This document shows positions 5,871 through 28,095 of a stretch of DNA of 64,000 nucleotides, piece after piece (position 1 is the stretch's first letter; every line of letters begins with the position of its first letter). Source of the stretch: Granulosicoccus antarcticus IMCC3135 (lineage in GTDB: Bacteria > Pseudomonadota > Gammaproteobacteria > Granulosicoccales > Granulosicoccaceae). The stretch covers positions 124,501 to 188,500 of the forward strand of contig NZ_CP018632.1 in assembly GCF_002215215.1 (NCBI RefSeq), in the 5' to 3' direction. The notes below the pieces were generated by a model, which was given only the letters and a program-made list of their open reading frames with translations, ran no database searches and had not been told where the DNA came from. The position numbers and the translations under genes were made by a program.

Positions 5871-6880
5871 ATCCGGTCCTGGTCAATCGCTGGCGCGGCA
5901 ATGCCATCGAAAGCCGGCATCGCGGCTCTGTTGCCGTGGTGGAAGCCACCGGGCGGGTCATTGCCGCGTTGGGTGATGTTCAGCGAGCGGTCTTCCCGCG
6001 TTCCGCCATCAAGTTTTTGCAGGCGATACCGTTTGTCGAAAGCGGCGCAGTAGACACCTACGATCTCGACGATCGACATATTGCACTGTCCTGTGCGTCG
6101 CACAATGGCGAGCCGATTCATGCCGGTCTGGCGCAGGACTGGCTAGAGCGTATCAAATGTGACCACGACGATCTGGAATGTGGAGCTGAGCTGCCCATGC
6201 ATCAGGCGACCCAGTTCGAGCTGATGTCAGAAGGGCGTGGGCCGCAACGTATCCATCACAATTGTTCTGGCAAACATCTGGGTTTTTTGTCTACCTGCAA
6301 GCAACTGGGTGAACAGACTGACAACTACCGACTGTACAACCATGCTGCTCAACAACGCTGGTTCGAGGTGTTGGAAAGTGTCAGTAACACCCGTGTTGCC
6401 CAACTGCCCTGGGGATATGACGGCTGCGCCATCCCCACACTGGCAATTCCGTTGCAACGCATTGCGCTGGCCATGGCCAGATTTGGCGATGTATCAAGAT
6501 TCGAAGGTCCCCGACGCGAAGCGGTCGAGCGCATTCATGCGGCGATTACCAGCAATCCTTACCTGGTTGCCGGCAAGGAGCGTCTGTGTACGGCGCTGAT
6601 GGAGAGACTGGCACCTCATATCATGATCAAGGTGGGTGCTGATGGAGTTTATACGGCAGTGATACCAGAGCATGGGCTGGGTATTGCCCTGAAGATTGAC
6701 GATGGCAATGATGCCGCGGCACGCGTTGCCATCGGTGCCGTGTTGCAGCGTCTGGGTCTGTTGTCCGGTGAAGACATCAAGGCTCTCAACGAATATCTGC
6801 GTCCTTCTGTGGCCAATTCGCGTGGCGAAACCGTTGGTCGCATCGAGCCTTCTTCTGACTGGGAGTCACTTACGGCGTAA
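5867..6880 (+). CDS. Asparaginase II family protein
   Basis: A 337-residue protein of the asparaginase-II family (Rhizobium etli AnsA type, unrelated to the E. coli enzymes). Recognisable family blocks are RHRGSVAVV near the N-terminus, the FPRSAIKFLQAIP segment, LSCASHNGEP, the HHNCSGKHLGFL block and the GYDGCAIPT block. Members with this architecture hydrolyse L-asparagine to aspartate and ammonia. The GTG start overlaps the trpS stop by four bases, so it is co-translated with trpS. The end overlaps the convergent cysteine-protease gene by 11 bases within a small palindrome. No signal peptide is seen, so a cytoplasmic location is likely. Confidence 0.85.
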   Translation: MNPVLVNRWRGNAIESRHRGSVAVVEATGRVIAALGDVQRAVFPRSAIKFLQAIPFVESGAVDTYDLDDRHIALSCASHNGEPIHAGLAQDWLERIKCDHDDLECGAELPMHQATQFELMSEGRGPQRIHHNCSGKHLGFLSTCKQLGEQTDNYRLYNHAAQQRWFEVLESVSNTRVAQLPWGYDGCAIPTLAIPLQRIALAMARFGDVSRFEGPRREAVERIHAAITSNPYLVAGKERLCTALMERLAPHIMIKVGADGVYTAVIPEHGLGIALKIDDGNDAAARVAIGAVLQRLGLLSGEDIKALNEYLRPSVANSRGETVGRIEPSSDWESLTA

Positions 6881-6883
6881 GTG
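6867..6883. terminator. Shared hairpin over two convergent stop codons
   Basis: CACTTAC-GGC-GTAAGTG is a perfect 7-bp stem with a 3-base loop. It contains the TAA stop of the asparaginase gene on one strand and the TAA stop of the protease gene on the other. There is no T-run, so efficient intrinsic termination is doubtful. Confidence 0.35.
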
Positions 6884-8357
6884 GCGTGTCCTCACAAGCA
6901 ACCAGAGAATGATAATCCAGTTGTTCCTGGTTGCTGCCGTACTCCGATATCTGCTGTTTCAACAAGGCTAGCTGGCGCAGCCGGATCAATTTGTGGAGCT
7001 GAGTGCCAAGGCGCTCTTGCTCGAGGAGCTCAAGGTCCAGGTCGGCAAACTGTGTCTGGGCCTCCACCAGGCTTGAATAGTCCGGCATCTGACTGATTTG
7101 ATCAGCGATCAGCAGTAGCGAGCCGTTACTGGCCAGCGTCTGATAGGCACCTGTATAGGGCCCCATCAATTCGGGCCAGTGCTGCATCAGTGCAAGCTGC
7201 AATTCAATTTGTTTGCGCCCTATCTGGTTCTCCAGCAGGTGGCGCTGTTCTATTGTTGCTTGCTGCTGCTGGTCATTCAGGGCCAGTTTCTGGCGAATGG
7301 CAGCAGGGGCTGCCCCAGCGGCAGTGTCCACTGCGGCAGTTCCCACTGGGGTATCAATCTCGTATTGGCTGGCCAGTTGCGCGAACATGCGTGAATATTC
7401 GTTGTCGGGCAGAATCGCAGGAGAGGGTAGCCAGCGCAGATACCAGGGTTGCCACTGATCCAGATAATCTTCGCTGGTCGAGCGTGACAGATCGGTGCTC
7501 ACGGCTTGCTCGAGGGTGTACAGATGAGCTTCGCGCAGTGTGGTGATGCCATCCTTATTGGCATCCGGGTTGTGACTGGTTGCCTGGCCATTGCGATCCT
7601 CACCGGCAAGTGCTGCAAAGAAGTAGGTGGTGTAATCACGATAGTCATCGGTGTCGATGCTTGCACTACAGCCTTCTGCCAGGCGATAGGCGGACTCGGC
7701 GGTAAAGCCACAGCGAGGCGTGGAATTGAGTTCCAGGCCCTTTTGCGATTCCTTGTAGGCGAGTCGGTGAAAACCACCCGAGTAGCACTGTGTGAATACG
7801 AACCGAAAGGGTGCGGTCCGCGGTTCCAGCATCTCGTGCAGTTCTCTGGCCGTCAGTGTCGTGTCGTCCCATAAGTTCAGGGTGACCCGGTCCGGCGTGG
7901 TCATCGACTGACTACCGTGACCGTTGTAGACCAGCAAGAGGTCCTGATCGTCGGTACGCTCGATGATGTCGCGTAATTTTGGTTCCAGTTCATTTCGGCG
8001 AGTACTGCCCAGTACATTGGGCACCGAGTGTTCTCGGTAGCGTCGATTCTCGAGCACCCAGTCGTAGAACACGCGTGCCAGTGGCTCGGTTCTGGACTGA
8101 CCCTGCTCAGGGACTACGACGTAATGAACATCTGCGCCGGGCTCATCGCCATCGGTGAAATAGGTGTCGACGGTAATGTTCTGTGTTTCCAGAATACTCT
8201 GGACCCACTTGACGTTCAATTCGATCTGTCCCTGTGAACCGTGAACGTTGTACCCACCGCCGATCAGGACAGCTTCAGTGCTGAGAGCGCTGCCTGAATA
8301 CAGCAGGCTCAGGGCACTCGCTGTCAGCAGTTGTCGCGCGTTCTTCCAGTGTATCAA
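6870..8357 (-). CDS. Exported caspase/legumain-like (clan CD) cysteine protease with C-terminal helical region
   Basis: A 495-residue secreted protein with a signal peptide (LLTASALSLLYSGSALS). The core resembles clan CD peptidases (C13/C14): a predicted strand ending in the catalytic-type His, DLLLVYNGHGS (His near residue 147), and 44 residues later the Cys in RFVFTQCYSGGF (Cys near 191). Further blocks include DANKDGITTLREA, which looks like a calcium-binding loop. The C-terminal third, from about residue 350, is Gln/Leu-rich and probably coiled coil. It is last in a four-gene operon, with its start overlapping the stop of the membrane-protein gene by four bases. Peptidase activity and substrate are unproven; both catalytic residues are present. 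Confidence 0.75.
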   Translation of the reverse strand: MIHWKNARQLLTASALSLLYSGSALSTEAVLIGGGYNVHGSQGQIELNVKWVQSILETQNITVDTYFTDGDEPGADVHYVVVPEQGQSRTEPLARVFYDWVLENRRYREHSVPNVLGSTRRNELEPKLRDIIERTDDQDLLLVYNGHGSQSMTTPDRVTLNLWDDTTLTARELHEMLEPRTAPFRFVFTQCYSGGFHRLAYKESQKGLELNSTPRCGFTAESAYRLAEGCSASIDTDDYRDYTTYFFAALAGEDRNGQATSHNPDANKDGITTLREAHLYTLEQAVSTDLSRSTSEDYLDQWQPWYLRWLPSPAILPDNEYSRMFAQLASQYEIDTPVGTAAVDTAAGAAPAAIRQKLALNDQQQQATIEQRHLLENQIGRKQIELQLALMQHWPELMGPYTGAYQTLASNGSLLLIADQISQMPDYSSLVEAQTQFADLDLELLEQERLGTQLHKLIRLRQLALLKQQISEYGSNQEQLDYHSLVACEDTPLTP

Positions 8358-8797
8358 CGCAATCTCCCGCGGCGTGTGAAGCCTGCCAGCACGTCAAGAA
8401 ATCGATAGGCAATCGCCAGCAGCAAGCCGGTTAATACCAGCGTTGGCAACGCATTGGCTGCCTGTTGAAAAAGCATCAATGCAAGCAAGGCACCCGTTAG
8501 CGGGAGGGAAATGCCAGCCAGCCACCAGCTGATTCGCTTGCGTGACATCAGCAGATAATCCGCAACAGCGATCAGGCCTAATGGCAGTGTGATGGACAGG
8601 CTCTGCTGGTAGCCGTTCAGAAAGTGTTCGAGCATCACTCGCTTGGGCGTTTGTGACCAGGCATCCAGTTGCCAGCCATCACCTTGCAGATAAGCCAGCA
8701 ATGAGCTTGAAAACACATAAGCGGGCCAGGCCAGGGCGCTGATAAGAACCCACAGGCCCAGCAGGTAGATCGTTCCAGCTTTGCGACGAGCTCTCAT
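8354..8797 (-). CDS. Small integral membrane protein, four predicted helices
   Basis: A 147-residue protein with a basic N-terminus (MRARRKAG) and about four hydrophobic segments: GTIYLLGLWVLISALAW, SITLPLGLIAVADYLLM, WLAGISLPLTGALLALML and LPTLVLTGLLLAIAYRF. It ends in a basic tail (RRGRLR). I do not recognise a family. It occupies the place where carbamoyltransferase clusters often carry small membrane proteins of the SxtJ or DUF5989 kind, but I cannot assign it to either. It overlaps both neighbours by four bases and is therefore translationally coupled to the carbamoyltransferase and the protease. Confidence 0.75.
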   Translation of the reverse strand: MRARRKAGTIYLLGLWVLISALAWPAYVFSSSLLAYLQGDGWQLDAWSQTPKRVMLEHFLNGYQQSLSITLPLGLIAVADYLLMSRKRISWWLAGISLPLTGALLALMLFQQAANALPTLVLTGLLLAIAYRFLDVLAGFTRRGRLR

Positions 8798-10509
8798 TTG
8801 CCGGTGTCAGGCTGCGCGCTGGCCTGTTTGGAAACGATGAAGGAGCCGATAGCCAGATAGTCCAGGCCTGTCGAGAAGAAGCAGCGGATGGCATCTCGAG
8901 GGGACTCGACTACGGGTTCGCCCTGAATGTTGAAGCTGGTGTTCAATACCACGGGTACCCCTGTTCTTTGCCCCAACTGGGTGATGAGCTCATGATACAG
9001 CGGGTTGGTGTCCCTGCGTACGGTCTGCAAACGTGCGCTGCCATCCACATGGGTGATAGCTGGCAATTGTGCCTGTTTGTCTTCGCGCACCTGGCAGACC
9101 TTGAGCATGAAGGGAGCCTCTACCTGAATATCGAAGAACTCGCCAGCGGCCTCAACCGTTGCCGAAGGGGCAAAGGGTCGATAGGCTTCGCGGAATTTGA
9201 CTTCGCTGTTGATTTTGGCCTTCATGTCCGGATAGGCCGGGTTGGCGAGGATGCTGCGAGCCCCCAGTGCTCGAGGGCCGATTTCCATACGACCCTGGAA
9301 CCAGCCGAGAATATGACCTTGCTCCAGCAGTTGGGCTGCCTCCAGAGCAACGTTACCGGCTCGATGGTAGGAGAGTTTGAATTGTTTCAGCAACGCCTCG
9401 ATGTTCACGTCGTCGTATTGATTACCGACATAGGGATTGTCATGAACGGCGGTACGCGGCTGAGCAAGCGTTTGATGCAGTACGGTAAAGGCGGCGCCGA
9501 TGGATGTGCCGTTGTCGCCCGCTGCCGGCATGATGTAGACATCATCAAAGCCTGCCTCGCGTAGCAGGCGTCCGTTCATGACGCTGTTCAGGGCGACACC
9601 GCCTGCGATCACCAGATAAGGGGCGTTGGTTCGTTGCTTGAGAATGCTGGCCATGGCAAGGGCGCACTCTTCCAGCACTTGCTGGAAGGCGGCGGCCACG
9701 TCGTGGTGATGTGTCTTGAATTCACCATCAAGGGGCCTGGGTTTGCCAAAGGTCTGATGGAATAGGTCCGAACAGCGGCGGTAGCCCCAGTACTGGTAGC
9801 TGAAGTAGTCAAGGTTGACCTGTAATTGGCCCTCGGCATTGACTGTCACGCATTTTCTGGCCTGCTTGATAAAGCTGGAAGCATCACCCAGAGGTGCCAG
9901 TCCCATGGTTTTGCCTTCATCGTAGTTGGGTTTGAAACCGCAGAACTCGGTAACGGCCTCATAGACCGAACCCAGAGAGTTGGGGAACAGGCTTTCGTTG
10001 AAGCAGGTAACGTCTGTACCACGACCTTCACCCAGCCAGGCACAAGCCCATTCACCGGAGCCGTCGATAGCCATGATGGCAGCGTGCTCATAGGGACTGA
10101 CAAAAAAGCTGCCGGCGGCATGTGCCAGATGGTGCTGTATGTAGTGAACCTGAGGCGACTTGCCACTGGGCCAGTGGGCTTTCATGAAAGCCTTGAAGCG
10201 CTGTTGCTTGAAGATACCTGCAACCAGTTCATGCTTGATGAAGGGCAGGCTCTTGTGCGGCGCTTTCAGGGCGTAAAGAGTTTTTGGCAACCACTGGTGC
10301 GTCGGTTTGATCGAGAGCGCTATATGGTCAATGTCGGCATAATCGATGCCGGCGACCTCAAGACATCGCTGAATGGCCAGTTCAGGAAAGGCACGAGTGT
10401 GCTTGTCACGCGAAAAGCGTTCTTCTTCCAGCGCCACCACCAGTTCACCATCGCGCACAATACAGGCGCTGGTGTCGTGGAACCATGTGTTCAGTCCGAG
10501 AATAATCAT
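8794..10509 (-). CDS. NodU/CmcH/TobZ-family carbamoyltransferase
   Basis: A 571-residue cytoplasmic enzyme of the family that transfers a carbamoyl group from carbamoyl phosphate, through an adenylate intermediate, to a hydroxyl on a sugar or natural product. The N-terminal domain has the ASKHA-type start ILGLNTWFHDTSACIV and the metal-binding HHLAHAAGSFF run, followed by MAIDGSGEWACAWLG and the IAGGVALNSVMNGRLL block. The C-terminal domain shows FQGRMEIGPRALGARSI and VVLNTSFNIQGEPVVESP. All hallmark blocks are intact. It sits nine bases after the acyltransferase gene and overlaps the membrane-protein gene by four. The acceptor molecule cannot be told from the sequence. Confidence 0.92.
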   Translation of the reverse strand: MIILGLNTWFHDTSACIVRDGELVVALEEERFSRDKHTRAFPELAIQRCLEVAGIDYADIDHIALSIKPTHQWLPKTLYALKAPHKSLPFIKHELVAGIFKQQRFKAFMKAHWPSGKSPQVHYIQHHLAHAAGSFFVSPYEHAAIMAIDGSGEWACAWLGEGRGTDVTCFNESLFPNSLGSVYEAVTEFCGFKPNYDEGKTMGLAPLGDASSFIKQARKCVTVNAEGQLQVNLDYFSYQYWGYRRCSDLFHQTFGKPRPLDGEFKTHHHDVAAAFQQVLEECALAMASILKQRTNAPYLVIAGGVALNSVMNGRLLREAGFDDVYIMPAAGDNGTSIGAAFTVLHQTLAQPRTAVHDNPYVGNQYDDVNIEALLKQFKLSYHRAGNVALEAAQLLEQGHILGWFQGRMEIGPRALGARSILANPAYPDMKAKINSEVKFREAYRPFAPSATVEAAGEFFDIQVEAPFMLKVCQVREDKQAQLPAITHVDGSARLQTVRRDTNPLYHELITQLGQRTGVPVVLNTSFNIQGEPVVESPRDAIRCFFSTGLDYLAIGSFIVSKQASAQPDTGK

Positions 10510-10518
10510 ACGATCAAT

Positions 10519-11619
10519 TTATGCCGCACGCCGGACACGGGCGCGAGCTGTTTGTTTCAGGCGGTCCAGAGTGCGTAGAGCAAGACCACCAGGATTGTTG
10601 GCATAGCGTGTCAGATGCCATACGGATTCGGTATGTGGGTGCCAGCGCTCCGCCCAGGACGGTGAGGACACCAGGCTGAGTGTTGACAAGCCAAGTTTGC
10701 TGGCCTGTTCGGCCGTATCCTGCAATAACAGGGAGCCGGGCGAGTATTGACTGTGTTGTTCACTGTAGGCAATCTTCAACAGGCTCAGACACTGACCGGT
10801 TTGCAAGCCGAACTGCGCGGCTATGCACTCTTCATCAAGCCACAATAGAATGATCACCGGTTGCAGCCCCTCGAATCGTGGTGCCAGCAAACGGCGATAG
10901 AAATTTGTCAGTGCAGGGTCTGCAGCAATGGCCGTGGATTCTCCCTGCGCACCTTTCCAGCCGGAGGCCTCAAGGTGCAGAAATCGTGAGTAGGCTTCGG
11001 GCAGCTCGTCTGGCTGACGGACCCACTGCATGCGCAACTGTCCCGCCTCCTGAAGTTTATGACGCAAGCGTTTCAGATTGCGCCTCAGTTTACCGCTGGC
11101 TGGCGGCAAGCCTTCTTGCAAATCGAACCAGGCTGATTGGCGTGCCGGGCGTTGTTCCCAGTGCGCGTGTGTTTGGCTGACAGTTGTGTTGTCCAGATTC
11201 TGCTCGGCAAGCATGCCGAGTAGTGCAGAGCGCTCTGGCACATTGCAGATTTGCCAGTCCCACTGCGCGGTTCCTGCCAGAGACAGGGCGCTCTGGATGG
11301 CAGAATTACTCTCGATAGCGCTCATCCGGGGATGTATCAACACATCACCCAGAGTCAGGTGGTCATGCCTAGGGGCATGGAATCGATGCCGCTGGGCACG
11401 TGCCTGCAATGGCAGCATCAGCTTCAACTGGTCGCCTTGATGCACGCAGGCAAGCTCCACCGGACACTGCAGCAGGTTCTCATCCGCCGCCAGAATCCAG
11501 TCTGGATGGTGATAGAAACGCGGTTCTGCCTGCGATGAAAACAGTTTCAGCCAGCCACATTTGCTGATGCGCTCTTCATCCAGTCGTTCTATATGGGTAT
11601 TGATCAGTGGCTCTGCCAT
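10519..11619 (-). CDS. CelD/BcsL-type GNAT acyltransferase
   Basis: A 366-residue protein with a GNAT fold of the CelD (Acetyltransf_6) type, recognised by the block LHLEASGWKGAQGE and, further on, IILLWLDEECIAAQFGLQ and KIAYSEQHSQYSPGSLLLQD. The N-terminal half (FYHHPDWILAADENL, LMLPLQARAQRHRF) matches the usual first half of these duplicated GNAT proteins. Members often act in polysaccharide or capsule biosynthesis as acyl- or aminoacyl-transferases. It is first in the four-gene operon. The pairing with a carbamoyltransferase suggests both modify one glycan or small molecule. Confidence 0.82.
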   Translation of the reverse strand: MAEPLINTHIERLDEERISKCGWLKLFSSQAEPRFYHHPDWILAADENLLQCPVELACVHQGDQLKLMLPLQARAQRHRFHAPRHDHLTLGDVLIHPRMSAIESNSAIQSALSLAGTAQWDWQICNVPERSALLGMLAEQNLDNTTVSQTHAHWEQRPARQSAWFDLQEGLPPASGKLRRNLKRLRHKLQEAGQLRMQWVRQPDELPEAYSRFLHLEASGWKGAQGESTAIAADPALTNFYRRLLAPRFEGLQPVIILLWLDEECIAAQFGLQTGQCLSLLKIAYSEQHSQYSPGSLLLQDTAEQASKLGLSTLSLVSSPSWAERWHPHTESVWHLTRYANNPGGLALRTLDRLKQTARARVRRAA

Positions 11620-13697: not shown

Positions 13698-15029
13698 CTA
13701 GAAATCCCGGATGAAGCGCACGAAAAAGGCGTCAACATCTGGGAACAGTGTCTGATCTGCCAAAGCGCCGAACTTTTTGTCCGGTTCTTTGCCCGATTGC
13801 AGGTAATATTCAGCAGCCACACTCCAGCCTCGGGTACCGGAACGTCGTCCGTATTCCAGTCCCAGAGTCGTGGCGGTAAATTCACCCAGGCGGTAATCGG
13901 CTGAGGCAAAGCTGTGCGAATCACCACTGACGGGACGCTCGCTACCCACGAAAAAGGGTGTGTAGAAGTCAGCTGCGGATTGCTGATACAAGCGTATATG
14001 TGGTTGCCAGTAACTACCGTTGTTGCTGGCAATGCGGTAGCGAAAGTCCAGTGTGTGTGAATTGATGCCCCAGTCATCAGTCAGGAAACGGTAGGAGGAA
14101 TCCAGAATATTGTCTCCCAAGGCAATTTTGTATTGTGCATACAGGCTGTGCTTGGTACGTGAATCCGGCCTGTTCTCGTAGGCCACGGTAGGCAGATCTG
14201 GTTGCACAGAGTTTTCGAACACCGGGTTACCGGTTATGGGGTCAACCACACTGATGAATTTGTAAGGATCATTCAGATAGCCATCGGATGAGCTCAAGGA
14301 ATAGTTGATCTGGAAAAGACTGCGCTTGTTGATGATCTGCGTCAGTCCAAATACGGCATCGATCACTTGCTTGTCACTGCCAGAGCCTTGCCGGAGCGGG
14401 TCTGTATCTTCGGGCTGCATGGCCGCAAACGGGATGGGTTCACCTCCGACGGGGGAGCCTGAGTCTGCACTTAATGAGAGGCCACCCGAGAGAGTCGTGT
14501 TGCCTGCGTTGATGTCCTTCGCCAGTCCGCCGCTGATTCCCAGTGACAGGTAGTCATATTCCTTCGACAGGGCAGTACCCAGATTGAGCGTCAACTCTTC
14601 GGCTACCGGGCGTTCCCAGTTTGCATTGAAGGTAAGGCGCGTATCCTTGAATGTGTCATCCAGTGGCGTTTGTCCACTGGCAATGGTGTAGCTGCCATTG
14701 CCCGATGGTCGGGTGAATGTCTGCGGTAGCTCCGAGCTGACCGCGCCGGTTGCCGAGGCTCCCGTGAGCGTATCCAGTGTCAGCTTGAGTGTCAGATACT
14801 CATCGGTATCCAGATTTTTCTTCGCGCTGATCACCGGTTCGATAGCACTGACACGGCCCGATTCACTGTAATACATCAGCCCTGCGCTGGTTTCCCAATC
14901 CTGCAGATCGGGAAGCCAATCGGCGCTGACACCACCGCTTGCCAGCAGCGCACCCGTGGCTATGCCCAGCGTGGCTCGTATGGATGGATGTCTGGACTTG
15001 TTCGTTTGACTGGAATCAGTTACAGCCAC
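13698..15029 (-). CDS. DUF3570 family envelope protein
   Basis: A protein of about 443 residues matching the DUF3570 family: exported, beta-rich, outer-membrane-like, with alternating aromatic strands (DWETSAGLMYYSESGRVS near the start, FFVRFIRDF as a terminal Phe-ending strand typical of barrels). A hydrophobic export signal lies in ATLGIATGALLASGGVSA. The longer open frame would start 63 bases upstream inside the lipoprotein gene. I prefer GTG at 15027-15029 because a GGAGG at 15038-15042 lies eight bases before it. The start then overlaps the end of the DUF4266 gene. DUF3570, DUF4266 and thioredoxin genes commonly travel together. Function is unknown. Confidence 0.8.
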   Translation of the reverse strand: MAVTDSSQTNKSRHPSIRATLGIATGALLASGGVSADWLPDLQDWETSAGLMYYSESGRVSAIEPVISAKKNLDTDEYLTLKLTLDTLTGASATGAVSSELPQTFTRPSGNGSYTIASGQTPLDDTFKDTRLTFNANWERPVAEELTLNLGTALSKEYDYLSLGISGGLAKDINAGNTTLSGGLSLSADSGSPVGGEPIPFAAMQPEDTDPLRQGSGSDKQVIDAVFGLTQIINKRSLFQINYSLSSSDGYLNDPYKFISVVDPITGNPVFENSVQPDLPTVAYENRPDSRTKHSLYAQYKIALGDNILDSSYRFLTDDWGINSHTLDFRYRIASNNGSYWQPHIRLYQQSAADFYTPFFVGSERPVSGDSHSFASADYRLGEFTATTLGLEYGRRSGTRGWSVAAEYYLQSGKEPDKKFGALADQTLFPDVDAFFVRFIRDF

Positions 15030-15258
15030 AGCCACCGCCTCCAAAACTGCGACCACCACTGGAGGCCTCCTTGCTGAAGTAGATGTGGTCATCCAGTGCC
15101 GCGGCGATTGGCTGGCTGGTCAATGCCATTTCTGGTCTGGCCAGCGTGCCTCTTTCCCAGGGCTGCACGCCCAGAGAACTGCAGCCGCCCAGCGCGATCA
15201 GCAGGGGGCCGAGAACGAGTATTCGAGACAAGTGTTGCAAGCGAGGTGTTGTTTTCAT
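15016..15258 (-). CDS. DUF4266 small lipoprotein with Gly-rich CxC tail
   Basis: An 80-residue lipoprotein. The lipobox LLIALGGC puts the lipidated Cys near residue 26. After the mature start come QPWERGTLARPEMAL and HIYFSKEASSGGRSF, the conserved DUF4266 pattern, ending in a Gly-rich Cys tail (GGGGCGCN). The chosen Met gives a normal signal peptide; an ATG four codons earlier is also possible. The gene lies between the thioredoxin-like gene and DUF3570, overlapping the latter. The CxC tail could be a substrate of the co-encoded thioredoxin or a metal ligand; this is inference. Confidence 0.8.
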   Translation of the reverse strand: MKTTPRLQHLSRILVLGPLLIALGGCSSLGVQPWERGTLARPEMALTSQPIAAALDDHIYFSKEASSGGRSFGGGGCGCN

Positions 15259-15318
15259 ACAGATGTTCAATTCAATCGATTTGTCGTGTTGGTGGATGTC
15301 GGGGGAATCAGTTGCAGG

Positions 15319-15777
15319 CTATCTACTGATGTTCTCCGTGATCCATTGACGCAGCTCGTCGGAATCCTTCTTCCGGAAGCCCACATGTTTACCAATCAGC
15401 TGTCCTTCACGGTCATACAGGTAGGAGGTCGGCATGCCGGGGACCTCGTATTGTGCCGCTAGCTCTCCACCATGATCGAACACAATGTCGAAGGGTGTTT
15501 CATAGTCGACGAGAAATGCCACTGCGTCGTCGCGTTTTTCATCAACATTGATGGCCACGATAGCCAGATCATCCTTGTGCTCACTGGCAATATCGGCCAT
15601 GAAAGGGAAGGAGGCACGGCAAGGCGTGCACCAGGACGCCCAGAAATCCACATAGACGATCTTGCCCTTGTAGTTGGCAAGATCGAAATCTGCGGCTTCC
15701 AGCTGTTGCTGAGCGAAGAGTTGATGACTTCCGGCAAAGAGTATGAGGACGCCTAGCAGCTGTTTGACAATTTTCAT
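15319..15777 (-). CDS. TlpA/ResA-like periplasmic thioredoxin
   Basis: A 152-residue exported thioredoxin-fold protein. The signal peptide is LLGVLILFAGSHQLFA, the active site WCTPC is at residues 49-53 within VYVDFWASWCTPCRASFPF, and the cis-Pro loop is VPGMPTSYL. TlpA/ResA-type proteins reduce periplasmic disulfides, often for cytochrome maturation or metal-centre assembly. It lies 34 bases downstream of the cytochrome b gene and upstream of the CxC-tailed DUF4266 lipoprotein, a plausible redox partner. Confidence 0.9.
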   Translation of the reverse strand: MKIVKQLLGVLILFAGSHQLFAQQQLEAADFDLANYKGKIVYVDFWASWCTPCRASFPFMADIASEHKDDLAIVAINVDEKRDDAVAFLVDYETPFDIVFDHGGELAAQYEVPGMPTSYLYDREGQLIGKHVGFRKKDSDELRQWITENISR

Positions 15778-15811
15778 TTAATGCTCCGGTATGCACCGCC
15801 GTGTGCCGTGT

Positions 15812-16357
15812 TCAAGTGATGTCGCCGGGTTCGGCGCCTCGCTTCTTGCCATTGATCATGGCTTTGATCAGGTTTTCCTTGTGCCGATAGCTCGCATGAA
15901 GCACACCAGTAACATGAATAAGAACCATCATTAACATGAGTGTGGCGGTGGCGTCATGGATATTCATGACCCATTGCACACCCCAGAATGCATCCAGTGT
16001 GTACATCCAGCCTGTGAGGGCCGTTACCAGCATGGCCAGAATGAGTGCCACAATCATGTAGCCGCCAGCCGGATTGTGGCCAATGTAACGGGGCTCCTTG
16101 CGCCCTCGCATGGCTTGCAGGAAAGCCGCGACGCTGGCTGGTGTTCTGACAAATTGCTGGAATCGCGCATAGTAAGAGCCTGCCAGGCCCCATATCAAAC
16201 GAGTACCGATCAGTAGGGCCGCACTGTAGCCGGCCCATTCATGCAGATCCCGCCAGTCCTCGGCGCTCAGCCAGGCGATGGCAAAGCTGGCGACGAGGCT
16301 CCAGTGAAAAAATCGCACGAACGGGTCCCAGACGGATATTGTCTGGTTGTTCTTCAC
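15812..16357 (-). CDS. Di-haem cytochrome b561-type membrane protein
   Basis: A 181-residue four-helix membrane protein of the bacterial cytochrome b561 / Ni-hydrogenase b-subunit family. Candidate haem-ligand histidines fall in WDPFVRFFHWSLV (helix 1), WRDLHEWAGYSAALL (helix 2), VMNIHDATATL (helix 3) and VLIHVTGVLHASY (helix 4). The family passes electrons between quinol and periplasmic acceptors. It follows the PepSY gene by 11 bases and precedes the thioredoxin gene by 34, so it is part of the envelope redox operon. Confidence 0.9.
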   Translation of the reverse strand: MKNNQTISVWDPFVRFFHWSLVASFAIAWLSAEDWRDLHEWAGYSAALLIGTRLIWGLAGSYYARFQQFVRTPASVAAFLQAMRGRKEPRYIGHNPAGGYMIVALILAMLVTALTGWMYTLDAFWGVQWVMNIHDATATLMLMMVLIHVTGVLHASYRHKENLIKAMINGKKRGAEPGDIT

Positions 16358-22456: not shown

Positions 22457-23812
22457 ATGCGAAAGCAACAGCAACTGAATTGGTTGCAAGAACAAAACGA
22501 CATCGAAAATGTCTTCGCCTGTATCTGTGATCTCAACGGCACCTTGCGTGGCAAGCGTGTTGATGTCGATCAGGCAGGCAAGATTCTCGATGGCAACATG
22601 CGTATGCCCTTGTCTCTGGCCGGCGTCGACATTTGGGGTGAGGACATCGAAAACAGCGAGCTGGTTTTCGAAACCGGTGATGCCGATGGCATCTGCCAGC
22701 CAACCGGGCGGGATATCGTACCGATCAACTGGACATCCAAGCCCACGGCTCTGATTCCCCTGTGGCTCTATGAAGAGAGCGGTGCGCCTTTTCCGGGTGA
22801 TCCGAGGCATGCATTGAACGATATCGTGCAGCGTTTCAAGGCACGTGGCCTGACACCGGTGGTTGCAACCGAACTTGAATTTTATCTGGTGGACCCATCG
22901 GAACAAGAACCACAACCACCCTTGTCACCCGTCACCGGCAAGCGTCTGGATTCCGACGGCGCCTTGTCGCTTGATGAGCTGGAGCATTTCGATGCCTTCC
23001 TCAATGATGTTTATGCGGCTTGCCATGCCCAGGGTATTCCTGCTGATACGGCTATCTCTGAGAACGGCGCCGGGCAATTTGAAATCAATATGCGCCATGT
23101 TGCTGACGCGGTACGTGCGGCTGATGATGCGGTACTGTTCAAGCGCCTGGTGCGTGGCATTGCCAGGCAACATGGGTTTGCCGCAACCTTCATGGCCAAG
23201 CCTTATGGGCTGCGTGCCGGCAATGGCTTCCATGTGCATTTCTCGATGGAAGACGAGGAGGGCAAGAACGTCTTTGACAATGGTGGTGAGCAGGGCACCG
23301 ACATCATGCTGAATGCGGTTGCCGGTCTGTTGCGCACCATGCAGGAAAACGCTCTGGCCTTTGCCCCGCACGAAAATTCCTTCCGACGCTTGCTGCCGGG
23401 CACTCATGCTCCATCCAGTGTGGGATGGGGTTATGAGAATCGTACCGTTGCGGTGCGTGTTCCCGGAGGTAACTTCAAGGCGCGTCGGATCGAACATCGG
23501 GTCGCCGGTGCGGATGCCAACCCCTACCTGGTGTTGACCAGCATATTGGGTGGTGCACTGTTGGGCATCGAAAATGGCTGGATGCCGACTGCCCCGATTA
23601 CGGGCGATGCTTATTCGATTGCCAAAGACTTACCGCACCTGCCGCTGGATTGGGCCTCTGCTATCGAAGCGTTTGCAACCGGATCGCATATTCGTTCGAT
23701 CTACCCACGACGTCTGCAGTCCATGCTGGTGGGCTGCAAGCGACAGGAGCAATTTCGCTTCAACCGTCATGTAACCGATTTTGAATATCACAGCTACCTG
23801 GAAACAGTCTGA
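22457..23812 (+). CDS. puuA: Glutamine-synthetase family enzyme, probable gamma-glutamylputrescine synthetase
   Basis: A 451-residue GS-fold ligase. Recognisable blocks: an N-terminal beta-grasp with CDLNGTLRGKRVD, VATELEFYLVDP, ENGAGQFEINM, FMAKPYGLRAGNGFHVHFS, the ATP-binding region FAPHENSFRRLLPGTHAP, and VRVPGGNFKARRIEHRVAGA. The pattern is that of PuuA/SpuI enzymes that ligate glutamate to putrescine or other amines, not biosynthetic GlnA. The stop overlaps the start of the next gene (TGATG), an FAD oxidase of the PuuB type, which strongly supports the putrescine assignment. Confidence 0.87.
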   Translation: MRKQQQLNWLQEQNDIENVFACICDLNGTLRGKRVDVDQAGKILDGNMRMPLSLAGVDIWGEDIENSELVFETGDADGICQPTGRDIVPINWTSKPTALIPLWLYEESGAPFPGDPRHALNDIVQRFKARGLTPVVATELEFYLVDPSEQEPQPPLSPVTGKRLDSDGALSLDELEHFDAFLNDVYAACHAQGIPADTAISENGAGQFEINMRHVADAVRAADDAVLFKRLVRGIARQHGFAATFMAKPYGLRAGNGFHVHFSMEDEEGKNVFDNGGEQGTDIMLNAVAGLLRTMQENALAFAPHENSFRRLLPGTHAPSSVGWGYENRTVAVRVPGGNFKARRIEHRVAGADANPYLVLTSILGGALLGIENGWMPTAPITGDAYSIAKDLPHLPLDWASAIEAFATGSHIRSIYPRRLQSMLVGCKRQEQFRFNRHVTDFEYHSYLETV

Positions 23813-25122
23813 TGAGTGCTGCTATTCATTCCTATGCCGGTAATGGCGAACACACTGGAAGCTACTACGCGGCATCCGCCAATCCTGCGCCGCACAGGCC
23901 TGAGTTGGAAGGTGATGTAGAAGTTGATATCTGCGTGGTGGGTGCCGGTTACAGCGGCCTGTCGACTGCCTTGCACCTGGTAGAGAAAGGCTATCAGGTA
24001 GCGATTGTGGAAGGAGCTCGGGTTGGCTGGGGAGCATCGGGACGCAATGGTGGTCAGATCGTCAACGGTCTGAATGCCAGTCTGCAAACCATCCGCAAGC
24101 GCTACGGTCAGGATACCGCTACCTTTGTTGCCGGCATGATGCAAGAGGGCGGCAGCATCATTCGCGAGCGTATCGCCACCTACGACATCCAGTGCGACCT
24201 GAAGGAGACCAATATCTTTGTAGGCCTGACCAGTGCACATATGCGTGAGCTGGATGAGCGGCGCTTGCTGTGGAAAAGCTACGGTATTGATAATCAGCGC
24301 CTGCTGGACGCCAACGAATTACGCGAGCATGTCGATTCAGACCTCTACAAGGGCGGATTGATTGATTACAGTGGCGGTCATATGCATCCCTTGAACCTGG
24401 CTTTGGGTGAGGCGCAGGCGTTTGAATCGCTAGGCGGCACTCTCTACGAAATGTCCCCAGTGACAGAGGTGGATACAAACGCGGCTAAACCGCTGGTTAA
24501 AACAGCTAAAGGTCAGGTGCGTTGTAAGACTCTGGTCCTGTGTGGCAACGCCTATCTGGGCGGTGTTGTGCCTGCTTTGACATCGCGGGTCATGCCGGTT
24601 TCCACGCAGGTCATGGCAACCGAGCCATTGAGTGAAGAGCTGGCGCGCTCATTGATACCCGGTGATGGCTGTGTCGAGGATATCCGGTACATTCTTGATT
24701 ATTACCGAATGTCAGCGGATCGCCGATTGCTGTTCGGTGGCGGTACTGTCTATGGTGGTGCAGACCCTGTTGATATCGAAGCCAAGCTGCGCGGTAACAT
24801 GCTCAAGGTTTTCCCTCAGCTCAACAGTGTCAAGGTGGACTATGCTTGGAGTGGTAACTTTGCGCTCTCGTTCAGTCGCGTGCCGCAGATGGGGCGCCTG
24901 GGTGACAACACATACTATGCTCATGGCTACAGTGGTCATGGTGTAACCGGCTCACATACTTTCGGGCGTATTCTGTCAGAAGCCATTGATGGTGATCTTT
25001 CACGATTTGATGTGTTTGCAGGCCTGCCCTGGTACCCCTTTCCAGGAGGGCGGGCGCTGAGGGTACCGTATTCGGTCATGGGGTCCTGGTGGTACGGTGT
25101 GCGTGATCGACTGGGCGTCTGA
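23812..25122 (+). CDS. puuB: FAD-dependent oxidoreductase, probable gamma-glutamylputrescine oxidase
   Basis: A 436-residue DAO-fold flavoprotein with N-terminal dinucleotide motif VVGAGYSGLSTALHL and the PuuB-type segment VGWGASGRNGGQIVNG. It also has IDYSGGHMHPLNLALGEAQA and a C-terminal HGYSGHGVTGSHTFGRI. It would oxidise gamma-glutamylputrescine to gamma-glutamyl-aminobutyraldehyde, releasing peroxide and ammonia. It is translationally coupled to the puuA-like gene. Genes for the next aldehyde dehydrogenase (PuuC) and hydrolase (PuuD) are not in the window, though the divergent GabD-type enzyme could act on an aldehyde of this route. Confidence 0.87.
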   Translation: MSAAIHSYAGNGEHTGSYYAASANPAPHRPELEGDVEVDICVVGAGYSGLSTALHLVEKGYQVAIVEGARVGWGASGRNGGQIVNGLNASLQTIRKRYGQDTATFVAGMMQEGGSIIRERIATYDIQCDLKETNIFVGLTSAHMRELDERRLLWKSYGIDNQRLLDANELREHVDSDLYKGGLIDYSGGHMHPLNLALGEAQAFESLGGTLYEMSPVTEVDTNAAKPLVKTAKGQVRCKTLVLCGNAYLGGVVPALTSRVMPVSTQVMATEPLSEELARSLIPGDGCVEDIRYILDYYRMSADRRLLFGGGTVYGGADPVDIEAKLRGNMLKVFPQLNSVKVDYAWSGNFALSFSRVPQMGRLGDNTYYAHGYSGHGVTGSHTFGRILSEAIDGDLSRFDVFAGLPWYPFPGGRALRVPYSVMGSWWYGVRDRLGV

Positions 25123-25222
25123 GGCTCAATGAGGTAATAGCTGTAGTACCATCGGTGTTTGATTGACTGGCGATGCCTTGCCGGCATTGTCGGCTTTCAT
25201 GACCACGACCATGATGATTGCC

Positions 25223-25999
25223 ATGAGTGACGAGACACAAACTCGCAGTCCGAAGGGCTCAACTGTTACGCGTGTTCTGGATATCCTGGATGCGGTAGCG
25301 GATTCAGAGCATCCATTGAGCCCGACTGATATTGCCGCGCAGCTGTCCATACCCAAAGCCAGTGTGCATCGTCTGTGCGCGGCACTGGAGGAGCATGGTT
25401 ACGTGACAACTCGTCTCAATGGGCGTGGTTTGCAGGCGGGGCATCGACTCAACCGACTGGCACTGAATGTATTGTCAGGTGCACCCTTGCAGGCGCAGCG
25501 CCAGGCGATTCTTTCGGCGTTGTCACGTGAGATTGGAGAGACTTGCAATATTGCGGTGCCCGACGGTGCTGAAATGATCTATTTTGATCGAGCCCAGACG
25601 CACTGGCCGGTGCAAGTCAATCTGAAGATTGGTACTCGGGTTCCCATGTATGCCACGGCGGGAGGCAAGATGTACCTCAGCACTCTTTCGGATGCACGGC
25701 GTGACAGAATAATCCTGAATACCCATATGGAACGTCTGACGCCTAATACTCTGTTGAGTCATGATGATCTGAAAGAGGATTTGATTGCCACTCGGGAGCG
25801 AGGTTATTCGCTGGATAACGAGGAATACATAGAAGGGGTGGTTGCCATGGCCATGCCGATTAAAAACCACCAGGGCAGACTCTATGCAACCTTGTCATTT
25901 CATGCGCCTTGTATGCGACTGCCTATTTCCGCAGTGTCTGATTTTTTGCCCCAGCTGCGTGCTGCTAGCGAGCAGCTGAGTGCCTTGCTCGACGAATGA
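25223..25999 (+). CDS. IclR-family transcriptional regulator
   Basis: A one-component regulator of about 258 residues. The N-terminal winged HTH has VTRVLDILDAVADSEHPLSP, then IAAQLSIPKASVHRLCAAL and EEHGYV. The C-terminal IclR effector domain has EIGETCNIAVPDGAEMIYFD, VPMYATAGGKMYLS and GVVAMAMPIKN. The start is uncertain: MSDETQTRSP is chosen because family members usually begin about 15-20 residues before the HTH, but Met codons at 25199 and 25211 are in frame and none has a clear ribosome-binding site. It follows the puuB-like gene on the same strand and may control the putrescine genes. Confidence 0.85.
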   Translation: MSDETQTRSPKGSTVTRVLDILDAVADSEHPLSPTDIAAQLSIPKASVHRLCAALEEHGYVTTRLNGRGLQAGHRLNRLALNVLSGAPLQAQRQAILSALSREIGETCNIAVPDGAEMIYFDRAQTHWPVQVNLKIGTRVPMYATAGGKMYLSTLSDARRDRIILNTHMERLTPNTLLSHDDLKEDLIATRERGYSLDNEEYIEGVVAMAMPIKNHQGRLYATLSFHAPCMRLPISAVSDFLPQLRAASEQLSALLDE

Positions 26000-26045
26000 G
26001 CGAAAGCGTTTCTCCTCGTATCCTATAACCCTACCCTTCATAAGC

Positions 26046-27095
26046 ATGACCAATTTCTGGACCGAGACGGTAAAGCGTCTGACCCCATACGTGCCAGGTG
26101 AGCAGCGCAGTGGCGCCCATATCACCAAGCTCAATACCAACGAAAATCCTTATCCGCCAGCACCCGAGGTGCTGCAGGCAATCCGTGGCGTCGAGGGCGA
26201 TCAGCTACGCCGCTATCCGGACCCTGAAAGTGTGGAGCTACGCACGACACTGGCTGAATACCATGGCCTGAGTATCGATGAAGTCTTTGTCGGCAACGGT
26301 TCGGATGAAATCCTGGCACTGGCATTTCTGGCCTACTTCACTAATGGCAAGCCTTTGCAGTTTCCGGATATCAGTTACAGCTTTTACCCGGTGTACTGTG
26401 ATCTTTACGGTATTGAGCAAAAGCTGGTCGAGCTTGAGCCAGATTACAGTCTGTCGCTGGAACGATTTGAGGCCAATCTGGGCGGTATCATTTTCCCGAA
26501 CCCGAATGCGCCCACAGCCAGTGCTGTGCCTGCGGATGCGGTCTCTCGACTGTTAGAGAAGCATACCGAGCAGGTGTTACTGGTAGATGAGGCTTATGCT
26601 GATTTTGGTGGCGAAAGCGTGGTTGGACTGATTCGGCAGTATCCGAATCTACTGGTCAGTCATACTTTCTCGAAAGGGCGTTCACTGGCGGGTATGCGTC
26701 TGGGGGTGGCCTTTGGTCATCCGTCCCTGATCGAGGGGCTGCAGCGGGTCAAGAACTCCTTCAACTCCTACCCGGTGGATGCGTTGGCGCAGGCCGCAGG
26801 TGTTGCATCAATCAAGGCTGAAGACTACTACCGCCAGACTCTGACAAGCATCATGCAGACGCGACAGCAGGCTGTGTCAGACTTGCAGAATCGTGGCTTT
26901 GAGGTATTGCCAAGTGCTGCCAACTTCGTGTTTGCCAAGGCCCCCGACGGTAATGCTGAGCAGGTATTCAGAAAGCTGAATGATGCCGGTGTGCTGGTTA
27001 GGTACTGGAACAAGCCGCGACTGGATCAGTGGTTGCGTATTTCCATCGGAACGGCAGCCGAGATGCAGGCACTTCTGAGCGCTCTTGATGCGTAA
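26046..27095 (+). CDS. hisC: Histidinol-phosphate aminotransferase
   Basis: A PLP-dependent class II aminotransferase of about 349 residues from the chosen Met (MTNFWTETVKRLTPYVPGEQ). That start gives the normal family N-terminus, while the longer frame overlaps the IclR gene. Hallmarks: KLNTNENPYPP, VFVGNGSDEILALAF, LVDEAYADFGGES, and the Schiff-base lysine block SHTFSKGRSLAGMRLG. It converts imidazole-acetol phosphate to histidinol phosphate. No other his genes are nearby. Its 3' end overlaps the next gene by eight bases. Confidence 0.9.
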   Translation: MTNFWTETVKRLTPYVPGEQRSGAHITKLNTNENPYPPAPEVLQAIRGVEGDQLRRYPDPESVELRTTLAEYHGLSIDEVFVGNGSDEILALAFLAYFTNGKPLQFPDISYSFYPVYCDLYGIEQKLVELEPDYSLSLERFEANLGGIIFPNPNAPTASAVPADAVSRLLEKHTEQVLLVDEAYADFGGESVVGLIRQYPNLLVSHTFSKGRSLAGMRLGVAFGHPSLIEGLQRVKNSFNSYPVDALAQAAGVASIKAEDYYRQTLTSIMQTRQQAVSDLQNRGFEVLPSAANFVFAKAPDGNAEQVFRKLNDAGVLVRYWNKPRLDQWLRISIGTAAEMQALLSALDA

Positions 27096-28095
27096 GCGCC
27101 TGACGCTACTGTTGTTATCAAGCTTGTTTGTAGTATTTGCAGGCCCTGGCCAGGCCGAGGATGCGAAAGAGGATGAGGTCGAGAAAGAGCCGGGCATGGT
27201 GATCAAGGCCGGTAATTATATCGATGGTGCACAGGGTCGGGCGACTGAGAGTTTTGAGGCTTTCATGACGCGGGTTGATGGCTTTTTCACCGATGCTTCC
27301 ACCAACAGCGATGTATTGACGAATGACAGTTGGGCGCGTATCAAGCTTGATACGCAGGCCGCCGAGGGCGGCACGTTTGAAATGGATCCATCGGTCAAGA
27401 TCCGTGTCTCATTGCCCAATACCGAACGTCGCTTCAAACTGCTGTTCAGTACGGAAGGTGATGATACCGACTCGGTCGGCGATAACATTGGTGGTGCACA
27501 GAGCACTGTGGTCAGAAACAACCAGAATGCTTCGGCTGCGATCCGCTTTATCCGTTCCGCACGCAAGAACGGCAATACCGATGTGGACTTGGGCGTGCGG
27601 CAGCGCGAGGGCGATATTCAATATTTTGGCCGTGTCAGTCTCGGCTACCGGACCAAGCTGAAAAGACGTTGGGATTTCAGTGCATCCAATAGTTATTGGC
27701 ATTACAACAAATCGGGGTTTGAGAACCGCTTGACCTTCGATTTTCGGCGAGTTCTGTTCTATAACGAGGATTTTTTCTTTCGCTCATTTAGCGAATTGAG
27801 CTGGCGCAAGGGCAATAAAGGTGCAATTACAGGACAGACTCTGGGGCTCTATACCCAGTTTGGGGAAAGAAAGGCGCTGGCGCTCGAGGCGCTTGCCAGC
27901 TATCACACGGCCCTGAACGAGGATGTTCTGGAGCGTTATCGAGGCCATGAATTTCGTATTCGCTGGAGACACAGCATCTGGCGACCCTGGTTTTCCTATG
28001 AGGTCTGGCCTTCTGTATCATGGCTTGCAGAAAACGATTATGAGAGACTCTATTCTCTCTTGTTCAGATTGGAAATGACCATTGGCAAACAATGA
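27088..28095 (+). CDS. Exported beta-rich protein, possibly outer membrane; family unknown
   Basis: A 335-residue protein with a signal peptide (LTLLLLSSLFVVFAGPGQA) followed by an acidic linker (EDAKEDEVEKE). The remainder is rich in alternating aromatic/hydrophobic segments, such as FGRVSLGYRTKLKRRWDFSA, YNEDFFFRSFSELSWRKG and YEVWPSVSWLAENDYERLYS, suggesting beta strands of an outer-membrane barrel. I cannot name a family. The ATG lies inside the end of hisC, so it is translationally coupled to it, and the phosphoesterase gene follows after 12 bases. Confidence 0.7.
   Translation: MRKRLTLLLLSSLFVVFAGPGQAEDAKEDEVEKEPGMVIKAGNYIDGAQGRATESFEAFMTRVDGFFTDASTNSDVLTNDSWARIKLDTQAAEGGTFEMDPSVKIRVSLPNTERRFKLLFSTEGDDTDSVGDNIGGAQSTVVRNNQNASAAIRFIRSARKNGNTDVDLGVRQREGDIQYFGRVSLGYRTKLKRRWDFSASNSYWHYNKSGFENRLTFDFRRVLFYNEDFFFRSFSELSWRKGNKGAITGQTLGLYTQFGERKALALEALASYHTALNEDVLERYRGHEFRIRWRHSIWRPWFSYEVWPSVSWLAENDYERLYSLLFRLEMTIGKQ

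Follow-up and report, generated by a model that had tools for sequence, protein, structure and literature searches.

A recurrent four-gene operon of Granulosicoccus antarcticus combining a predicted O-carbamoyltransferase with a membrane protein and a putative exported clan CD peptidase

I analyzed a stretch of 64,000 nucleotides from Granulosicoccus antarcticus IMCC3135, corresponding to bases 124501–188500 of a single 7.78-Mb contig (hereafter the window; its genome is labeled G000). On its minus strand lie four genes in the order GNAT-CARB-MEM-PROT, encoding a GNAT acyltransferase, an O-carbamoyltransferase (CARB), a 147-residue membrane protein (MEM) and a 495-residue exported protein (PROT), as listed in Table 1. 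A first-pass annotation, made from the letters alone, had described four coupled genes on the same strand, with one 9-base spacing and two 4-base overlaps. This is exact: all four open reading frames are open at these coordinates, with junctions of +9, −4 and −4 bases, and the four products would presumably be made from a single transcript.

Table 1. Genes and junctions of the operon, in positions of the window.
Feature	Position	Strand	Remarks
GNAT acyltransferase	10519–11619	minus	first gene; PF13480 (Acetyltransf_6), E 5.5e-25
Gap of 9 bases, GNAT/CARB	10510–10518	minus	
NodU/TobZ/CmcH-type O-carbamoyltransferase (CARB), predicted	8794–10509	minus	PF16861, E 1e-71; PF02543, E 2.3e-60
Overlap of 4 bases (ATGA), CARB stop/MEM start	8794–8797	minus	
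MEM, 147 amino acids, four hydrophobic segments	8354–8797	minus	hydrophobicity; family alignment
Overlap of 4 bases (TTGA), MEM stop/PROT start (TTG)	8354–8357	minus	
PROT, putative exported clan CD cysteine peptidase, 495 amino acids	6870–8357	minus	TTG start; dyad H147 and C191

The first two genes belong to recognizable enzyme families, and their earlier assignment as a GNAT and a NodU/CmcH-type carbamoyltransferase stands, with PF13480 in one and both the Carbam_trans_N and Carbam_trans_C domains (PF16861/PF02543) in the other scoring over cut-off. For the GNAT, which I take to be CelD/FemAB-like, a sequence search of the PDB returned nothing significant (best E 0.65). The closest solved structures to CARB are the novobiocin carbamoyltransferase 9s2t, 7xb6 (an entry named Carbamoyltransferase), TobZ and GdmN. 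Residues H126 and H130, forming an HxxxH motif, and D332 are kept in 27 of 27 operon copies and in 9 of 9 other copies compared, and are presumably the metal and active-site residues. The operon enzyme reads as a member of the O-carbamoyltransferase family, with the corresponding activity predicted. In a tree of the 27 operon copies that were long enough and 9 others from relatives, the operon enzymes form one clade (support 100/99); characterized carbamoyltransferases are outside this tree, which also leaves out L138 (two frames) and G030:C56, one of 11 non-operon matches.

PROT starts with a single signal-like hydrophobic stretch, and the window protein has no Pfam or NCBIfam match over cut-off. 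Strong conservation is nevertheless found at the motifs NGHG (containing H147) and QCYSGGF (containing C191), at C216, C230 and C488-E489, and in an EF-hand-like loop at residues 265–276 with the pattern D-x-N-x-D-G-x5-E. A comparison covered 179 rows (60 loci and 119 database proteins, duplicates included). Counting the rows that have a letter at the position, 176 of 177 keep C191 and 172 of 177 keep H147. The copies lacking this His are P0083, P0099, P0114, L043, which lacks the Cys as well, and L135, a doubtful family member whose branch length is above 7 and in which the dyad His is unaligned.

I then compared PROT by hhalign with profiles of 17 C13, 11 C14 and 10 C25 rows, all from other genomes. 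It aligns with peptidase C13 at 96.5% (E 9e-10), the HG and CYSGGF motifs lining up, with C14 at 93.5% (E 2.2e-7) and with C25 at 56%; since C13 against C14 itself reaches 96.2% on this scale, C13 is favored over C14 but not proven. Legumain and GPI8, the GPI transamidase subunit, are members of peptidase C13. By these criteria PROT is a predicted clan CD cysteine peptidase, most likely C13-like, while lying formally outside Pfam's C13. Only one of 42 family members matches PF01650, below its cut-off (E 0.0017, 18.4 versus 22.8 bits); among ten distant relatives scanned, four (L103, L109, L110, L111) pass the cut-off and six fail. A sequence search of the PDB with PROT, using alignment A3, gave nothing significant, the best entry being 3bij (GSU0716) at E 0.011. 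The C-terminal third, which follows the catalytic domain, looks helical by eye, and to my eye presumably recalls the C-terminal prodomain of legumain. The caspase-like exported protease of the first-pass annotation thus keeps its clan and its signal-like N-terminus, while its likeness appears greater to C13 (legumain/GPI8) than to the caspases.

The hydrophobic segments of MEM span residues 7–23, 67–83, 93–109 and 120–136. Both its N- and C-terminal tails are rich in Arg and Lys, and following the positive-inside rule both ends are therefore probably located in the cytoplasm. No Pfam or NCBIfam family scores over cut-off for the window protein, the best Pfam match being PF16995 at 23.4 bits with 26.8 needed, and across 40 family members scanned, nine Pfam families matched at E 0.1, each in at most two members. 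I considered SxtJ (PF19588) as an identity for MEM and rejected it: it is not among these nine families, and a comparison of the MEM and SxtJ profiles, which has low power (2 SxtJ rows), gave no match.

In order to follow the four genes in relatives, I surveyed 57 genomes, namely the window genome and 56 relatives, with Granulosicoccus as the named close relatives and 36 genomes belonging to the same family. PROT is found in 23 of the 57, a carbamoyltransferase at E <1e-200 in 18, and a GNAT at E 1e-15 in 19, G052 being marginal (5e-16). Within the family, MEM and PROT occur in an identical set of 22 genomes, and GNAT and the CARB orthologue in an identical set of 17 (Fisher p about 1e-10 for each pair, uncorrected for kinship and genome completeness). 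Because some of these genomes contributed sequences to the MEM profile, the informative half of the first result is the absence of MEM from the other 14. All 18 carbamoyltransferases adjoin PROT except those of G011 and G032, where the contig ends; G032 has GNAT and CARB without PROT, its contig stopping 2 bases past the match. Contig ends also split the operon in G010 and G011, and cut the tail of CARB in G007.

A scan of a species-genome collection yielded 67 loci, among them loci in Sphaerotilus, Leptothrix, Pokkaliibacter, Sedimenticola, Thiodiazotropha, Thiohalobacter, Marinimicrobium, Reinekea, a Myxococcota bin and Phycisphaerales. The distribution is patchy, as only 14 of 369 genomes in an even draw of the class have PROT. 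The main count draws on 60 PROT loci, with each contig represented by one row, and retains the 43 that have at least 4.1 kb upstream; 17 shorter loci were excluded from it, and the distant matches L100–L111 are outside all counts. Of these 43, 23 are complete, six are GNAT-MEM-PROT, five MEM-PROT and nine PROT only, as judged by profile, and a MEM too diverged for its profile scores as absent. Two of the loci (L093, L094) end inside PROT and three (L028, L070, L096) have only 1.5–2.2 kb downstream, where genes could be missed. The nesting is unbroken: there is no carbamoyltransferase without GNAT, and no GNAT without MEM. Four of the loci where PROT lacks a recognized MEM, GNAT or carbamoyltransferase (L064, L072, L082, L134) lie directly upstream of a ClpB-like gene, identified by eye. 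The 17 excluded loci include four complete ones and two, L026 and L033, in which carbamoyltransferase-MEM-PROT is visible and the contig ends upstream; the rest show less.

Gene order follows that of the window in 23 of the 27 complete loci. The exceptions are L090, the Reinekea locus L087 (GNAT-MEM-PROT-CARB), L044 (CARB-MEM-PROT-GNAT) and L083, where the arrangement is convergent; the gene set is intact in the last three. As the set recurs far outside the genus, and sometimes reordered, the association is more than chance. On a PROT tree of 56 of the 60 rows (the short L091, L093, L094 and L099 being dropped), 13 changes must be assumed for the complete state, of which 9 are imposed by well-supported branches. 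The separate labeling of contig-cut loci inflates this number; the pattern fits repeated loss with some reshuffling. The conserved four-gene unit proposed from the window therefore holds, the operon recurring in different surroundings: none of the genomes examined has its genes scattered, nor is the carbamoyltransferase always part of a larger known cluster. Its internal structure needs correction, however, as it is nested: MEM-PROT survives without the enzymes in five of the 43 loci and PROT alone in nine, which makes the MEM-PROT pair the core.

In the window, the operon is flanked upstream by genes for a phosphotransacetylase, an HTH/PBP regulator, a DUF3570 protein and a thioredoxin-like protein, and downstream by a convergent L-asparaginase II gene followed by trpS. 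The 3′ ends of the PROT and L-asparaginase II genes share 11 bases (6870–6880). Further along the upstream flank, genes for the DUF3570 protein, the thioredoxin-like protein and a cytochrome b561 follow each other on the minus strand (13698–16357), and positions 22457–27095 carry glutamine-synthetase-like, FAD oxidoreductase, IclR regulator and aminotransferase genes on one strand, perhaps an amine-catabolism cluster. No glycosyltransferase is present among the flanking genes scanned, namely the six listed first and ten more up to position 28095. The earlier statement that none flanks the operon is thus accurate for these flanks, but fails in some other lineages, where the operon lies among exopolysaccharide genes.

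One such case is Marinimicrobium L085, an operon without carbamoyltransferase, where chain-length (TIGR03007) and sugar-transferase (TIGR03013) genes, both over cut-off, are found some kilobases away. BLAST clustering places homologues of both genes at the Reinekea locus, which also has a GT2 gene. Glycosyltransferases and polysaccharide deacetylases surround the operon in L083, a GT2 gene adjoins it in L080, and a flippase-type Polysacc_synt gene, a UDP-glucose dehydrogenase and a GINT1-like transferase are nearby in L074, L078 and L044, respectively. Neighborhoods were also read for three of the four sister carbamoyltransferases: L136 has an SxtJ-like protein, a GDSL hydrolase, Glycos_transf_4 and Polysacc_synt, L139 a GDSL hydrolase and Polysacc_synt, and L137 an SxtJ-like protein, with a neighbor on the other side that has no Pfam match. 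The exopolysaccharide surroundings in some lineages favor a role on a surface glycan.

A formyltransferase gene is present in 10 of 13 tested genomes with the carbamoyltransferase and in 0 of 5 with only MEM-PROT (Fisher p 0.0065, kinship uncorrected), although some of these matches (28–38% identity) may be other formyltransferases. It is adjacent to the operon in L034 (4752–5726), L038 (3393–4400), L040 (10356–11402) and L087 (13192–14166), and elsewhere in the genome in some other relatives. This hints weakly at the formyltransferase being part of a wider pathway.

All five MEM-PROT-only loci (L027, L028, L036, L041, L043) have a GG-N10-GC site of the TGGCAY type 64–153 bases upstream, resembling sigma-54 sites (single-base shuffle p 0.00–0.03), the motif having first been spotted by eye in three of these five. 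Of 46 other loci tested, six likewise have a site at p 0.05 or less, the window not being one of them. The motif is not clearly enriched across eight genomes, with 36 matches versus 30 for a reversed control, and the regions downstream of such sites in 12 loci show no common theme. Sigma-54 has been associated with cell-exterior genes (PMC3162934) and its sites with PEP-CTERM genes (PMC1569441). I regard sigma-54 control of the MEM-PROT-only loci as a lead only.

Taken together, I favor, while doubting it about as much as I trust it, a reading of the operon as a conserved, unnamed envelope module, in which a pair of enzymes modifying a surface glycan is coupled to a membrane/periplasm peptidase pair processing an envelope protein. 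In the cytoplasm, a precursor of a surface glycan or glycolipid would receive an acyl (or aminoacyl) group from the GNAT and a carbamoyl group from the O-carbamoyltransferase. MEM would sit in the inner membrane and work with exported PROT, which as a C13-like peptidase would cut, or cut and re-join, an envelope protein belonging with that glycan. This reading builds on the genes themselves and the PROT dyad, on their nested co-occurrence, on the clade formed by the operon carbamoyltransferases and on the exopolysaccharide surroundings in several lineages; the glycan, the substrate of PROT, the contact between MEM and PROT and any flipping or attachment step would be its proposals. The first-pass annotation was thus right about a conserved and probably envelope-directed unit, while a MEM that flips or anchors the product and a PROT that attaches a partner are conjecture.

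Several observations weigh against this module. Besides the window, 18 of 22 loci have its housekeeping flank, marked by L-asparaginase II, in place of glycan genes, and the clearest exopolysaccharide contexts come from few lineages, with no random-locus baseline for such neighbors; the Reinekea chain-length homologue has no Pfam match at E 1e-6. The window genome itself has neither a formyltransferase nor a match to exosortase (PF09721). MEM-PROT occurs without the enzymes in five of the 43 loci, and PROT is alone in nine. Finally, L043 (8398–9918 in G026), a MEM-PROT locus, has lost both dyad residues and kept its MEM partner. Because MEM-PROT persists without the enzymes, PROT would act independently of the modified product in some lineages.

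A possibility that I consider serious, if rather unlikely, is that MEM and PROT are an independent envelope-proteolysis pair for processing or quality control, with the GNAT and carbamoyltransferase a separate module coupled ancestrally and lost several times. The MEM-PROT-only and PROT-only loci speak for it, as do the scatter of operon states over the PROT tree, the location of four of the nine PROT-only loci (L064, L072, L082, L134) just upstream of a ClpB-like gene, and the sigma-54-like site upstream of every MEM-PROT-only locus. However, in the 43 loci the GNAT and carbamoyltransferase homologues adjoining PROT are never found without MEM, and the adjacency of the 18 carbamoyltransferases to PROT (bar the contig-cut G011 and G032), together with their single clade, suggests a functional tie. 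It is also conceivable, but improbable, that the operon produces a small secreted metabolite or peptide and processes it, with the GNAT and carbamoyltransferase decorating a natural product while PROT trims an exported precursor. The nearest solved carbamoyltransferase structures are antibiotic enzymes, L040 has an AMP-ligase with a carrier domain near its operon and L084 an AMP-ligase and an amidotransferase, and among clustered neighbors AMP-ligases recur in four loci and ABC-type ATPases in five. Yet no precursor-peptide family or modular synthase was recognized among these clustered neighbors, some of which were family-scanned, and the ligase and amidotransferase also resemble TIGR03098 and TIGR03108, exopolysaccharide types linked to exosortase, without reaching either cut-off.

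Clan CD peptidases also occur in anti-phage and toxin-antitoxin systems, and such a system could in principle be built around a caspase-like effector; I judge this very improbable here, as PADLOC gave 0 matches at E 0.1 for the four proteins, the N-terminus of PROT is signal-like, and the location of the genes is shared across much of the genus. A more ambitious form of the envelope module, which I regard as quite speculative, would have MEM-PROT act as a bacterial C13-type sorting transamidase resembling GPI8 or PorU in function, distinct from the sortase, exosortase and type IX secretion systems. Exported proteins would be bound to PROT through their C-terminus as a thioester, and then joined to a glycolipid, acylated and carbamoylated, that the GNAT and carbamoyltransferase make and MEM presents. 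It is considered because PorU joins proteins to a glycolipid and C13 contains GPI8.

MEM and PROT, which have no Pfam or NCBIfam name, closely co-occur with enzymes whose chemistry is known, in several Gammaproteobacteria lineages, in Sphaerotilus/Leptothrix and in a Myxococcota bin. No description of this operon was found in the open-licence PMC literature, in titles and abstract openings among the matches listed. Under the favored reading, the operon offers a testable way into a surface modification with a carbamoylation step and into a linked periplasmic cysteine peptidase; should this peptidase indeed join proteins to a glycan, it would represent a further route of bacterial protein anchoring.

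One known parallel is the PEP-CTERM/exosortase system (EpsH/XrtA), where an envelope (trans)peptidase is linked to exopolysaccharide genes and sigma-54 sites (PMC1569441). Exosortase is a polytopic membrane protein, whereas PROT looks like an exported, soluble enzyme of clan CD. Exosortase matches occur in 13 of the 57 genomes, 12 of them over cut-off; a partnership with PROT was considered and rejected, as the window genome has no exosortase and the matches fall in 5 of 23 PROT-bearing and 8 of 34 PROT-less genomes.

PorU, a clan CD peptidase of family C25, is like PROT an extracytoplasmic peptidase. As part of type IX secretion, it attaches a lipopolysaccharide to proteins, according to PMC8545088 and PMC4560394. 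PROT differs from it in its profile alignments, where C25 (56%) falls far behind C13 (96.5%), and the C25 domain PF01364 has no match in the window genome at E 1e-6. Compared to peptidase C13 (PF01650), PROT has a C-terminal region of its own and a co-encoded membrane partner.

A parallel architecture is found around the sister carbamoyltransferases, in the neighborhoods combining SxtJ, carbamoyltransferase and GDSL hydrolase (both partners in L136, SxtJ only in L137 and the hydrolase only in L139). Relative to these, the operon has a different type of hydrolase and an added GNAT, and its MEM lacks a match to the SxtJ profile in a comparison of low power. Lastly, the operon carbamoyltransferases form a clade apart from the 9 other relatives compared, in a tree that holds no characterized enzymes, while sharing with the NodU, TobZ and novobiocin carbamoyltransferases their domain family and the HxxxH and D residues.

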